From Actinomycetota bacterium (GTDB taxonomy: Bacteria > Actinomycetota > Aquicultoria > SKW223), in contig JAOADC010000018.1 of assembly GCA_026417515.1 (NCBI GenBank), positions 1 through 43,874 of the forward strand: a stretch of 43,874 nucleotides of DNA, in the 5' to 3' direction. Positions 28,529-35,216 of the stretch are shown here, piece after piece. Position numbers and translations under genes: made by a program. The stretch's first letter is position 1, and the number at the start of each line of letters is the position of its first letter. Under the pieces are notes generated by a model. That model was given only the letters and a program-made list of their open reading frames with translations, was not told the origin of the DNA and did no database searches.

Positions 28529-28891
28529 TTACTTATAAGTCTTTTTCAGGTAATCAAGTAGTAAGGGGTAGTCTTCTTCAGTGAGGTTGGCACCATTATC
28601 GTACTGATACATCTTTTTAAGAACATTCTCCCACTCATCACCTCTATGTCCACTCTTTTCAATTCTATCGAGGTCATGACAGAAACCACATTTAGCAGCA
28701 AAGAATGCAGCTTGATCGAGTTCCTCTTTCTTTTTTTTATCGATCGATGCATCGACGTTATTTTCCTTTGTTTTTGAAGACGAGCAACCGATAAGAAGTA
28801 AAGAGAGTGCAAGAGAAATGATTAGAAGAATAGCAAGGATTCTTGATTTCAAAAAACCATCACCTCGCACCTTGTTTGTTAAACTATTCAC
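28529..28891 (-). CDS. c-type cytochrome-like lipoprotein
   Basis: Lipobox LLLIGCSS and heme motif CGFCH (AAFFAAKCGFCHDLDRI). Confidence 0.75.
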   Translation of the reverse strand: MNSLTNKVRGDGFLKSRILAILLIISLALSLLLIGCSSSKTKENNVDASIDKKKKEELDQAAFFAAKCGFCHDLDRIEKSGHRGDEWENVLKKMYQYDNGANLTEEDYPLLLDYLKKTYK

Positions 28892-28934: not shown

Positions 28935-31331
28935 TCAGAATAGAGTTGGCATATCTTCACTACCTGATTTCTGATAATCTAAGAGATTTTTATTGAAACC
29001 CAGGACTTCCAAAACCCTTAAGGCTGCTGGATATATCTGGTGATTTAAATAGTAATCGACATCGTAATTGCTTACGTCAACGAACTCCAGTGGTTCTGCT
29101 CTGTCAGCAATGGAGCCGCTACCTTCAACAATTATGTATCTTATTTGCTCTCCTTTGCTTATATCATATCCCCTATCTATTAATTTTCTCGCTGCTACAG
29201 CATGAGGAGTTTTTTGTTTATACTCGTCGAGTTCTTTTCCAAGTTGCGCAACCATCGATAGATCCTTTAAAGAAACTTTTCTCGACTTAACCTTAGAAAC
29301 AACATCTCTTACCTCACTGAGCGCTTCATCAATCTTTCCATCAAGAACTTTCCTCAAAACGCTCATTTGAAGTTTTTTTGCTAATTCGCACCAATCTTTT
29401 CTAACTGCTTCAAAACCTCTCACAAGTAACCTGTTTGAACTGTCCACTAATGCGTATCTTTTTTTAGCTGCTTTTTTCTCTCTTGTAAACGAGAATATTC
29501 CCTTTCTATAGACTCCCTGGAGTTCAAGTTCCATTATTCCAGGAAGCGAAGAATTTATCTCATTTAAGAAAGCAATCGCCTTCTCCTTAGAATCAACCTT
29601 AAGAAAGAGTGAATCTGTGTCACCATAGATTACCTCTCCAAAATTTTCGGCTTCTGAAACAGCAAGTTTTATAAAATGCCTACCGAAAGCAGCGCAGGAC
29701 TCTGCACACTGCCTGCAATACCAGCGTGCACCTGAGTAAGCAAGGTAACCATAGCTTGCATTCGCAAGCACTTTAAGTGCGCCTTGCATTTCTTTTGTGT
29801 AACTGAAACCCTCTTCATTTTCTTTTAAATTCTTAAGTTTTTCTTTGAGTTCAAACCTTCTTTTAAGGACTTCTTCAACACATGAGGAAATAAAACCCTT
29901 TCTTTCAGCACAGAACCAAAATTCCTTTTCAGGAACTTTGTGTTTCATTGTTGAATCTTTACAGCAATCGCAGTTAAGTGTTTCAGGCGAAATATTAAAA
30001 GAAACGATTATCGAAGGATAGAGCGAACGGAAATCAAAAACTGCCAAGTTTTCATGTAGGCCAGGTTTTGGTTCTATAACGTAACCACCTGCGTAAGGTT
30101 CTACTTTCCTTCTTTCTAAAATCTCATCCTGCTTTGGAAGATTAAGAGCAACAGCATTGAAATCTCTGGTCTTCTTAACAAGATAGTTGTCAACCAGCAG
30201 CCCATAGGTTTCTCTAGTTGCATCAAATGGAGTTTCTCCAGATATGTTTGACAATGAAAGTATCTGAGGTAGAAGTGACCTTGCTAATTTATATGTCAAA
30301 ATGGCATCGTTTCTGGAATATGCTACCAATTCTTCTCTTGGACCCTCTCTCCAGAGCATAATGATTTTTTCATATCCAATCTCTTCTTTGCCTTCTCCCA
30401 CTATTTCAGAAGCAACTTCGTTGAGAGTTAAGACCTCAGATTGCAGTTGGGGAGCAAGAATGTTCTGCACAAAAGGAAAAAGATCAATATGAACGGCGCC
30501 TTCAATTCTTGCAGCGTATCCCCTTCCCCTTCTAACCCACTTTAAGGTTGATCCTCCCTTTAAAAAGGGGAGTTTGAGACGATAATTCCTAATCTTTTCT
30601 CTAATGATGTCTAAGTCAAAACCATCTGAGTTGTACCCAACAATAAAATCTGGATCGTATTCTTTTAAAAATTCAACAAAACCCATTAAAAGTTCTTTTT
30701 CGTCTTCAAATTGCTTATCAGATCCTTCTGCGTAAGATGCAGCATATACAAAAGCCTTTTCTTCTGAGACTGCAAATGAGATAAGAACGATTTGACCATC
30801 AACGTACTCAATATCGAAAGCAAGAATCTTAAAATCAGGAAAACTGCCGATTTTTGACTGTTGAATCTCAACCAGTTTATAGGTTGGATAAGATGAAAGT
30901 TCTTGTATTTTTAAATCGCTTAAAGTAACCTCAGCTTCGACCCAACTTGCAGGAGAAATACACTTGTCCCTCAGAAATCTTTTGTATTGATTTAAGGTAT
31001 GTTCATAGCATTCATTTATGATTGGCTTGTGCTTTATAGCATCTCTTAATCTTTGAAGGTCCGATGGCTTTCTTGCATAAACTTTAAGCAATTCAACTTC
31101 TTTTCCATTAAGCAATTTATTTTCAATACTATGGCCAGAAAATTCTGGACATTTCTTTAATTCTTGAAGAGTCTTTTGAAGATCGTTAAAGTGAACATAA
31201 AAATATGGTTGAATGCTCTCATCAACTAAGACGACCTTGCTACCATCACTTTTCTTAGCAAGCAGGATATTTAAGGTTTGCTGGCCACTCTGCTGGTAGG
31301 TTGCATCAAAAACGAAAAAAACATCTTTCAA
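28935..31331 (-). CDS. Family B DNA polymerase (archaeal-like)
   Basis: Exo motifs (AFDIEYVDGQ, VGYNSDGFDLDII, YSRNDAILTYKL); pol motifs DFRSLYPSII, KVLANASYGYLAYSGARWYCRQCAES, YGDTDSLFLK. Confidence 0.95.
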   Translation of the reverse strand: MKDVFFVFDATYQQSGQQTLNILLAKKSDGSKVVLVDESIQPYFYVHFNDLQKTLQELKKCPEFSGHSIENKLLNGKEVELLKVYARKPSDLQRLRDAIKHKPIINECYEHTLNQYKRFLRDKCISPASWVEAEVTLSDLKIQELSSYPTYKLVEIQQSKIGSFPDFKILAFDIEYVDGQIVLISFAVSEEKAFVYAASYAEGSDKQFEDEKELLMGFVEFLKEYDPDFIVGYNSDGFDLDIIREKIRNYRLKLPFLKGGSTLKWVRRGRGYAARIEGAVHIDLFPFVQNILAPQLQSEVLTLNEVASEIVGEGKEEIGYEKIIMLWREGPREELVAYSRNDAILTYKLARSLLPQILSLSNISGETPFDATRETYGLLVDNYLVKKTRDFNAVALNLPKQDEILERRKVEPYAGGYVIEPKPGLHENLAVFDFRSLYPSIIVSFNISPETLNCDCCKDSTMKHKVPEKEFWFCAERKGFISSCVEEVLKRRFELKEKLKNLKENEEGFSYTKEMQGALKVLANASYGYLAYSGARWYCRQCAESCAAFGRHFIKLAVSEAENFGEVIYGDTDSLFLKVDSKEKAIAFLNEINSSLPGIMELELQGVYRKGIFSFTREKKAAKKRYALVDSSNRLLVRGFEAVRKDWCELAKKLQMSVLRKVLDGKIDEALSEVRDVVSKVKSRKVSLKDLSMVAQLGKELDEYKQKTPHAVAARKLIDRGYDISKGEQIRYIIVEGSGSIADRAEPLEFVDVSNYDVDYYLNHQIYPAALRVLEVLGFNKNLLDYQKSGSEDMPTLF

Positions 31332-32156: not shown

Positions 32157-33698
32157 ATGAATTATAAGTTTGACTTCACTTTTTCTCCAGATTCACAAAA
32201 AGTAAAGGAAATTGAATGGTATGACTATAAGGAAGGAATGAAAAAAGCATACGAAAATAATAAACTTGCCCTTCTTGTAATTTCTGCCGCTTGGTGCCAC
32301 TGGTGTCATGTGATGGATGAAACGACGTTCTCAAACGACAGTTTGATATCAAAGATAAATACCGAAATGGTTGCCATAAGATGTGATGCTGATCTTGAGC
32401 CTGAGATTGAAGCGAGATACGCAGGCGAAGGATTGCCTGCCGTTTTCATTCTTTCACCACATGGAATAACAATCGGCAGCGGCAACTTTTTTACCCAGCA
32501 TGAGCTACTCTCACTAATAAATGAAGCGCAGACTTTTTTTGAAACACAGAGGAAGTACTACTTTGAAAAAAAAGAGGATTTTGAACGCAATCTTGAGAAA
32601 ATCCGATCAACAAAAACAACATTTGAAAAGGATTTTGATTTAGAGACTGTTGTCAAAGACACCATAATTCAAGCAGTGATGAACCTTGACCACGAAGAAG
32701 TTGGATTTCTTGGCGAAGGAAAGTTTCCATTTCCTGAAATGGTATCCTTCTTGTTTTCGATTGCTGAATACGAAAATCAGGAAGAGCTATTAGAAATGCC
32801 ATCCGAAATTCTCAGAGCAATTGTTGATAACCTATTTGATAAAGTCGAAGGTGGATTCTTTCGCTACGCAAGGATGAGCGACTGGTCAAACCCACAAACA
32901 GACAAACATCTATACGACAATTCTTTAATGATTGAATTATTATGCTTGGGATACAGATTAACTAAAGATATTTTGTTTTTGAATGCTGCAGAAATGACTA
33001 TAGATTTCATTGATAAAAACCTAAGAACACCTTCTGGTCTCTACGGATTTTGTGTAGATGCAAACGACGAATATTACGATAAATCTGCTGAAGAAAGGCT
33101 TTTCTCGTCTGTAAAGCCAAGAAGAATTCTCCATCCTGTTTCTGCATACAATCTAAGATTTGCATCATCTCTTATTGATGCTTATCTTGTAACTGGTAAG
33201 AATATGTATCTTGAAATTGCTCAAAGAATTATAGACGTCTTGCTCAAGGAACCTTTCTTCGATGAAGAAAGGAATCTCTTGAAGCGCTCACCAATAAAAG
33301 AAGGTTTCTTGCTACAGGATTCTGCCGAATTATTGAACGCGTTACTTAAGTGTCATCAGGTAACTAAGAAAGCGTCATTGCTTGAAATTTCCAAATCTAT
33401 TTATGAATCAATTGTGAAATCATTCTATGACCATAATAAACTCAGCTTTAAGGATAGGGTTTTAGAATCAGATGATTTAGGTGCTTTAAGCATTAACTAC
33501 CATCCACTAAACGAGAACTGCCTGCTGGCAAGATGTATCTATTATCTTTCACGCCAGGACAGTAGTTTGAAAAATGAAATAGAAAGAGCCGAAACAGTAA
33601 TTAGATTGTACTCAGAAAACATCGAAAATCTCGGTCCAAACGCTGGCCCTATCGGTCTCGCTGCCCTTTCTGCACTGAAAGCAAAGGAGGCTAATTAG
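32157..33698 (+). CDS. DUF255 thioredoxin-like / six-hairpin domain protein (YyaL/SPATA20-like)
   Basis: EIEWYDYKEGMKKAYENNKLALLVISAAWCHWCHVMDETTFSN; AAAGGAG SD upstream. Confidence 0.9.
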   Translation: MNYKFDFTFSPDSQKVKEIEWYDYKEGMKKAYENNKLALLVISAAWCHWCHVMDETTFSNDSLISKINTEMVAIRCDADLEPEIEARYAGEGLPAVFILSPHGITIGSGNFFTQHELLSLINEAQTFFETQRKYYFEKKEDFERNLEKIRSTKTTFEKDFDLETVVKDTIIQAVMNLDHEEVGFLGEGKFPFPEMVSFLFSIAEYENQEELLEMPSEILRAIVDNLFDKVEGGFFRYARMSDWSNPQTDKHLYDNSLMIELLCLGYRLTKDILFLNAAEMTIDFIDKNLRTPSGLYGFCVDANDEYYDKSAEERLFSSVKPRRILHPVSAYNLRFASSLIDAYLVTGKNMYLEIAQRIIDVLLKEPFFDEERNLLKRSPIKEGFLLQDSAELLNALLKCHQVTKKASLLEISKSIYESIVKSFYDHNKLSFKDRVLESDDLGALSINYHPLNENCLLARCIYYLSRQDSSLKNEIERAETVIRLYSENIENLGPNAGPIGLAALSALKAKEAN

Positions 33699-33934
33699 TG
33701 AAAGATATATCTCGAGAAGAAACTCTGAGAATTTTTAAAAAAATCCTTGAAGAACAGGCAGATTATGATCTTGCTCAATTGGATGATGAAAAGCTGATTG
33801 AATTGATTTGCACTGGATGTCCATTTTATGATAAAGACAAGGAAAGATTAGAGTGTGGCGCTTTCAGAATACTTACAAGTATTTTGAAATCTGGCAAACT
33901 AAGATCAGATGATTTAAAGAAGATGATAGGTTAA
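33698..33934 (+). CDS. Small Cys-containing protein (CTGCPF...ECGAF), unknown family
   Basis: GTG start overlaps upstream stop by 1 nt; next gene begins 1 nt after its stop; motif CTGCPFYDKDKERLECGAF. Confidence 0.8.
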   Translation: MKDISREETLRIFKKILEEQADYDLAQLDDEKLIELICTGCPFYDKDKERLECGAFRILTSILKSGKLRSDDLKKMIG

Positions 33935-33935
33935 G

Positions 33936-35099
33936 ATGTATCTCCATAAAGATGTTTCCTTTAAATACTACAACGGAATTCCATATATTTACCAAAGAAA
34001 TACAGACGAAATTTTTGAGGCTGATGAGGAACTTATAAACTTACTTAAAGAGATTTTTTATAAACAGGAAACAAACTTCTCAATATCTGAGGATGTTCTT
34101 AAATATCTTGTCAAAGAAAAATTACTCACTTTTTCTGAAGGTGAAAAGAGCAAGAAGATTTCTGAAGGAAAATTTGCCTCTTCACACCATCCTCCGCTTC
34201 AGTATCTTCATTTAATAATCACAAGCAGATGCAACTTTAGATGCAAACACTGCTTTGTTGAACAAAAACCGTTAGATGCAAAATTGGAGCATCTTCAAAA
34301 AATATGTAAAGAATTCGAAGATATTGGTGGTTTAAGGTTGATTGTCTCAGGTGGAGAACCTCTCGAACATCCCGATTTTTTCGCCTTTAACGAGTTCCTT
34401 TCAAAAATAGATGGCGTTCGAAGAATTTTGCTGACCAATGGTTGGAAATTGTCGCTTCTTAGTGAACAAGAAATAAAGAATTTAAACTTCGACGAGGTTC
34501 AAATATCGCTTGATGGCAATGAAGAAATCCACGACTGGTTAAGGAGGAAGGGATCATTTAAGCGAGTCATTGAATCTGCAAAGAAGATAAAGAATTCTCA
34601 TATCGATCTTTCTTTTGCTACTGTAATTCATTCTCATAACATAGGCATCTTTAACGAAATAGAAAATATTGTAAAAGAATTTCAACCTTTTAGGTGGACT
34701 ATCGATTTTATCTGCGCAACGAATAAGTCAAGGAAGCACAATCTCATTCCTGATTTTGAATCGGCAAATTTACTGAAACATTCTTTCAATTCAAGATATC
34801 ATTCTTCATCTCCTGGCTTTGCTTGTGGACCAAATCTGGCATCTATTCTTCCAGATGGCAATCTCTGCAAGTGCGATTACTTCACAGAAATAAGTGGTGG
34901 AAATGCTTTTGAAAAAGGACTTCTTGCTTCATGGAACGACCTTAAGAAAATCAGGATCGAAGAAATAGATTGCAAAGGTTGTCCTTTTGCGGATTCCTGC
35001 CGCGGGGGTTGCAGGTATCGAGCATTGTCTTATAATGGAAATATGGCTGCCAAAGATCCGGTGGCCTGTGTTATTTTCAACTGCTACGAAAGCAGTTAG
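33936..35099 (+). CDS. Radical SAM/SPASM domain protein with possible PqqD-like (RRE) N-terminus; putative peptide maturase
   Basis: CNFRCKHC (CxxxCxxC); SPASM Cys pattern CGPNLASILPDGNLC...CKGCPFADSCRGGC...C; N-terminal ~70 aa resembles PqqD/RRE winged-helix. Confidence 0.92.
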   Translation: MYLHKDVSFKYYNGIPYIYQRNTDEIFEADEELINLLKEIFYKQETNFSISEDVLKYLVKEKLLTFSEGEKSKKISEGKFASSHHPPLQYLHLIITSRCNFRCKHCFVEQKPLDAKLEHLQKICKEFEDIGGLRLIVSGGEPLEHPDFFAFNEFLSKIDGVRRILLTNGWKLSLLSEQEIKNLNFDEVQISLDGNEEIHDWLRRKGSFKRVIESAKKIKNSHIDLSFATVIHSHNIGIFNEIENIVKEFQPFRWTIDFICATNKSRKHNLIPDFESANLLKHSFNSRYHSSSPGFACGPNLASILPDGNLCKCDYFTEISGGNAFEKGLLASWNDLKKIRIEEIDCKGCPFADSCRGGCRYRALSYNGNMAAKDPVACVIFNCYESS

Positions 35100-35122
35100 A
35101 CCCTGCGAAGGGGGGTAAGATT

Positions 35123-35185
35123 ATGAAAATCGTAAAGGTTTCCACCAGTTCTTCTTCAACCTGTAAGTGTTCTGGAAGCTGTTAA
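35123..35185 (+). CDS. 20-aa Ser/Thr/Cys-rich peptide MKIVKVSTSSSSTCKCSGSC, putative RiPP precursor
   Basis: SD-like AAGGGGGGT upstream of ATG; 23-nt gap from radical SAM gene; intrinsic terminator begins at the stop codon; missed by ORF track due to size. Confidence 0.75.
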   Translation: MKIVKVSTSSSSTCKCSGSC

Positions 35186-35216
35186 AAAAACCCGGCCATT
35201 ATGGCCGGGTTTTTTA
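35184..35216 (+). terminator. Intrinsic terminator (probably bidirectional)
   Basis: AAAAAAA-CCCGGCCAT-T-ATGGCCGGG-TTTTTT, perfect 9-nt arms. Confidence 0.92.

Follow-up and report, generated by a model that had tools for sequence, protein, structure and literature searches.

A probable RiPP-type family pairing a radical SAM/SPASM maturase with very short cysteine peptides

What is a 20-codon open reading frame (ORF), lying between a radical SAM gene and a terminator, doing in a small actinomycetotal genome? The window, by which we mean the whole 43,874-nt stretch of DNA analysed here, carries a DUF255 (Thioredox_DsbH) protein of 513 aa with an AAWCHWCHVM motif (32157–33698, + strand; PF03190, E 9.6e-18), a 78-aa cysteine protein with the pattern CxxCPFY...ECG (33698–33934, + strand), a radical SAM/SPASM enzyme of 387 aa (33936–35099, + strand; Radical_SAM PF04055, E 1.5e-19) and the 20-aa peptide MKIVKVSTSSSSTCKCSGSC (35123–35185, + strand), with a putative leader beginning MKIVKV and a core of TCKCSGSC. 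The TAG of the DUF255 gene (33696–33698) and the GTG of the 78-aa ORF overlap by one base, a gap of 1 nt precedes the radical SAM ORF, and 23 nt separate the latter from the peptide ORF. The operon ends in an intrinsic terminator hairpin (35185–35215, + strand) of 14 bp and -22.4 kcal/mol (z = -6.2; 0 of 200 shuffles equally stable), which a consensus terminator scan of the window did not pick up, probably because the T-run belongs to the stem. The coordinates agree with the initial annotation, which described four packed plus-strand ORFs with a terminator at the end (here the ORFs span 32157–35185), and the flanking genes are, as it stated, on the minus strand. Elsewhere in the window we observed a family B DNA polymerase of 798 aa (28935–31331) and a lipoprotein-like ORF of 120 aa (28529–28891) with a single CxxCH and a weak cytochrome c match.

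The short ORF is a genuine gene, not a chance reading frame, because its protein sequence is conserved with synonymous changes, its Shine-Dalgarno sequence is kept, and its motif tracks the enzyme across genomes. In the loci and genomes of relatives the peptide takes the form M-x-I-x-K-...-T-C-K-C-x-x-S-C, and enzyme and peptide occur together in Actinomycetota, Nitrospirota, Nitrospinota and deltaproteobacterial lineages. We gathered 108 distinct peptides of 19–21 aa, with a strong Shine-Dalgarno sequence before nearly all of them; that of the window is AAGGGGGGT (35108–35116, + strand). The search pattern fixed C14, K15, C16 and C20, so conservation was counted only at other positions, among them I3 (107/108), K5 (106/108), T13 (93/108) and S19 (108/108). 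An earlier search of the radical SAM loci left K15 free, and this residue was nevertheless present in every convincing peptide. Among the closest relatives, the ORF that follows the enzyme gene encodes MKIKKVTRRISATCKCSGSC (with a TTG start) and MRITKIPRRKGGTCKCNKSCG, and within the Geothermincolaceae group the codon differences in the peptide ORF are mostly synonymous. A loose CKC pattern matched 10 places in the window's own genome, where the only recognised family peptide is the one already described. Searches of NCBIfam, Pfam and PDB sequences gave no assignment for the peptide; the thiopeptide precursor model TIGR03892 scored it at 15.2 bits against a cut-off of 25 bits and did not match seven relatives.

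Radical SAM relatives were collected by whole-genome searches and by a profile scan of genome contigs; scanning these contigs with a single sequence gave no match, and a three-sequence profile returned 432 candidates, of which 80 were kept. A peptide gene lies near the enzyme gene in 52 of 71 non-redundant loci. It may be downstream, or upstream in either divergent (L046–L048, L058) or the same orientation (L060, L096, L099, L106). Homologous loci lacking the peptide had been named at the outset as evidence that would speak against the pairing. Such loci do occur, and we rejected them as a refutation, since the motif is usually elsewhere in the genome: it was found in 15 of the 19 genomes concerned, with the genome of L071 outside the set searched, and the genome search did not find it in G330, G402 and G404, which have the enzyme. 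Among Nitrospirota with a peptide-less radical SAM locus, the motif was found elsewhere in 11 of 13 genomes, and a reversed-pattern control gave 0. Across 398 Actinomycetota genomes, 28 of 29 with the enzyme contain the motif versus 12 of 369 without it (a rate similar to the reversed-pattern background), and across 217 Nitrospirota genomes the counts are 70 of 71 versus 5 of 146; the Fisher p values of 2e-32 and 1e-49 are too small, because shared ancestry is ignored. The tie between peptide and enzyme persists where the two genes are unlinked. In the phylum of a Syntrophaceae member, the enzyme was found in about 10% of a 247-genome sample and a nearby peptide at 10 of 12 enzyme loci; at loci of radical SAM proteins from outside the family the motif was found in 0 of 30.

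The window enzyme has an RRE-like N-terminus (approximately residues 1–75), followed by a radical SAM core with C99/C103/C106 and the SPASM cysteines C297/C313/C346/C349/C355/C359/C378. All 61 family members compared contain CX3CX2C, and all 61 contain C297, C313, C349, C355, C359 and C378, so that six of the seven SPASM cysteines are invariant; the first cysteine of the SPASM CX2C has moved to CXC in many relatives, and the window protein has CX2C. An AF2 model of the enzyme (pLDDT 92.9) found its best solved fold matches in CteB, SkfB and SuiB, with alignments covering nearly the whole protein, and also matched PqqE; a profile search concurs (SkfB, PqqE, CteB). The N-terminus, which consists of three strands and then helices, aligns in register with PqqD in hhalign (p 3e-4), with a probability of 40% versus under 1% for column shuffles. 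Fold and hhalign speak for an RRE, but single-sequence scans of Pfam and NCBIfam gave weak RRE matches and a PDB sequence search gave none; we treat the domain as a putative, likely RRE. The NCBIfam radical SAM models (NirJ, PqqE, CcpM, ACGX, GeoRSP, StsB and WgkB) score the window protein at no more than 88.9 bits, far below their cut-offs, and the same generic models come out on top for the 61 members, judged there by E-value without comparison to cut-offs. A 61-row profile scores family members, truncated ones included, at 273 bits or more (median 540) and other radical SAM proteins at no more than 148, and a tree places the family on one side of a branch from 12 outgroup radical SAM proteins (SH-aLRT 99, with a long-branch warning).

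The CxxC protein of about 78 aa is the second core partner of the enzyme, adjoining its gene in most loci as judged by a family HMM. C38, C41, F43 and C53 are invariant in 30 of these small proteins, and an AF2 model of the window protein shows four helices (pLDDT 87.8); there was no match in Pfam, in PDB sequences or among PDB folds. It may be an Fe-S or metal protein. In Nitrospirota the small protein often takes a divergent two-repeat form, and at one locus (L077:4260–4946) two repeats are followed by a cupin-like domain in a single fusion, divergent from the maturase gene. The DUF255 protein had been proposed as a further member of a four-gene RiPP-type unit. This part of the proposal did not hold: among all fetched loci, a homologue occurs near the system only in the window and in one related genome (G001, locus L059, which ends at a contig edge), and we rejected it as a core gene. 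The DUF255 gene is a lineage-specific addition to the operon, peripheral to the enzyme, the small cysteine protein and the peptide, which are conserved well beyond this genome.

The system works like known radical SAM RiPP and cofactor systems. CteB, SkfB and SuiB share with the family enzyme the radical SAM and SPASM cysteine set and an N-terminal domain, and in their systems, too, the precursor gene often adjoins that of the enzyme; they differ in having only 14–20% identity to it over the structural alignments, and the family precursor differs from their substrates in its length of only 19–21 aa and its one fixed TCKCxxSC core. The window enzyme falls far under the cut-offs of sactipeptide and ranthipeptide models. 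We have not filed the family under either class, because thioether chemistry is only a candidate here and because the SCIFF/ranthipeptide feature is six Cys in about 45 residues, whereas this peptide has three in 20. The PqqA-PqqD-PqqE system is similar in its tiny precursor, radical SAM/SPASM enzyme, RRE-like domain and housekeeping-like conservation. However, its RRE is a separate protein (PqqD) rather than a fused domain, its precursor core is Glu/Tyr rather than Cys, no other pqq genes were noted among the family's neighbours, and the window enzyme scores 69 against the PqqE cut-off of 381. The clostridial model CcpM (TIGR04068), whose enzymes act on Cys-rich peptides, matches over the N-terminal domain and core, but with 52.5 bits for the window enzyme against a cut-off of 500; no Clostridia were among the family loci seen.

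Bufferins and methanobactin are cysteine peptides linked to copper stress and modified after translation by MNIO (DUF692) enzymes, and bufferin precursors have Sec signal peptides (PMC12452194). One variant of the family peptide, described below, is likewise linked to copper, but the enzyme of the family is a radical SAM protein rather than an MNIO, and its 20-mers are too short for a Sec signal peptide. The peptide strings were not found in open-access literature texts, and no description of the gene set was found in NCBIfam, Pfam or the open literature on radical SAM RiPPs, Nitrospirota and copper.

A second precursor type, CKCHxSC (H-type), is often present in Nitrospirota, unlinked to the enzyme gene, and each genome that has it shows a single strong maturase match. 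A gene for a P-type ATPase, YHS or Met-rich protein lies within 4 kb at 21 of 22 H-type loci, versus 0 of 18 loci of K/R-type peptides beside the enzyme; these flags are motif-based, with Pfam confirmation on examples. The latter is a second control set, placed beside the radical SAM gene and used because the first K-type set (2/12) was biased to one clade. The ATPases checked at H-type loci mostly carry CPC, the Cu/Ag-type motif of P-type ATPases. Such operons, away from the maturase gene and with P-type ATPase, YHS, SHOCT or Met-rich proteins, were seen at L258–L272 and L277–L283, and in the nitrite oxidiser Nitrospira Ru_enrich the H-type peptide lies downstream of a large putative metal ATPase. 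The copper link belongs to the Nitrospirota H-type. No such link was seen at the window, where Ser takes the place of the H-type His in the peptide. A further copper-type operon (L284, G400:C8) contains CKCLSSC and a stop with no close in-frame start, possibly a decayed or frame-shifted peptide. In one Nitrospirota group (L286–L296), an unlinked 19-aa K-type peptide, MIKKVSGK..TCKCxxSC, has a fixed place before genes for a TPR-like protein, an ispE-like and a prs-like product.

Fe/Mn SOD, rubrerythrin, pyruvate/2-oxoacid:ferredoxin oxidoreductase (POR) and nitroreductase-like genes often adjoin the enzyme gene in Nitrospirota, which may reflect the shared synteny of one order; the SOD, rubrerythrin-like and POR genes occur in varying combinations at L061, L069, L072, L077–L081 and L103. 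No exporter, protease, immunity or dehydrogenase gene recurs beside the enzyme loci.

A short encoded precursor is tied to a putative modifying enzyme by linkage and by co-occurrence, and a RiPP-type assignment is well supported. We consider it likely that the locus belongs to a previously undescribed RiPP-type family with one maturase and short cysteine precursors. The N-terminal RRE-like domain would bind the basic N-terminus of the precursor (M-x-I-x-K-V/I-x-K/R), its predicted ligand in the window being the putative leader MKIVKVSTSSSS. The enzyme would then act on the C-terminal end of the precursor, the invariant core T-C-K-C-x-x-S-C; the most plausible change is a radical cross-link, or an oxidation, on the cysteines or right beside them. 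The small CxxC protein may act as an accessory, whether as an Fe-S or metal protein or as a chaperone. The product is probably retained inside the cell, since no exporter, protease or immunity gene recurs beside the enzyme, and could act as a metal- or redox-handling peptide, a role that on its own we propose only tentatively. In Nitrospirota one maturase would serve several unlinked precursors, the H-type being encoded in copper-type operons. Extended to the family, this suggests a modular arrangement, possible though short of probable, in which one housekeeping-like maturase per genome serves several unlinked 20-aa precursors, each placed in the operon for which it works, with residue 17 helping to set the partner or metal. 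With the same reserve, H-type peptides might serve in copper defence and K-type peptides beside the maturase gene or at conserved loci elsewhere.

Alternatively, the 20-mer might be a disposable scaffold from whose TCKCxxSC core a redox cofactor is cut, as in the PQQ and mycofactocin pathways. A short precursor with a near-invariant core across phyla, the missing exporter and immunity genes, the PqqE fold match and the SOD, rubrerythrin and POR genes beside many Nitrospirota loci are all in keeping with this, but no peptidase or dehydrogenase recurs beside the genes, and several unlinked precursors differing at residue 17 and in context suggest that the peptide itself matters; we consider a cofactor pathway unlikely. 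A product of sactipeptide or ranthipeptide type, acting as an antimicrobial or signal, would suit an enzyme whose fold is closest to CteB and SkfB and whose gene adjoins that of a Cys-rich peptide. It is nonetheless highly improbable, given a core that hardly diversifies, precursors located in copper operons, a maturase far under the CcpM, StsB and AlbA cut-offs, and recurring neighbours that include neither transporter nor immunity genes.

The peptide might also go unmodified, as a metallothionein-like molecule, with the radical SAM enzyme targeting something else in a shared metal or redox response. Three cysteines with a basic tail, and the CKCHxSC form within Cu-type operons, would fit such a role; against it, peptide and enzyme nearly always share a genome, also where their genes are unlinked, and the conserved basic N-terminus suits a recognition leader, which makes this explanation very unlikely. 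A Cys-codon attenuator leader, or a chance ORF before a terminator, is a further reading of the short ORF, prompted by the hairpin and T-run directly 3' of it. This idea is already contradicted and deserves virtually no weight: the amino acids are conserved with synonymous variation over several phyla, the ORF has a strong Shine-Dalgarno sequence, varied positions and different downstream genes, and in the window no gene follows on that strand.

The RiPP-type reading with a modified, metal- or redox-handling product makes this family a good candidate for an undescribed peptide class. Peptide-modifying radical SAM systems are mostly lineage-limited bacteriocins or belong to a few cofactor pathways, and an almost invariant core, together with the copper link of one variant, sets this system apart. 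Of the genomes sampled, about one third from Nitrospirota, about one tenth from the Syntrophaceae member's phylum and 7% from Actinomycetota have the enzyme, and the hosts include a nitrite-oxidising Nitrospira enrichment genome. Its precursor would escape the usual annotation cut-offs because it is so short. If confirmed, the system would represent a further class of modified peptides that work inside the cell, and a broad group of so far unassigned radical SAM enzymes in environmentally important bacteria would gain a function.
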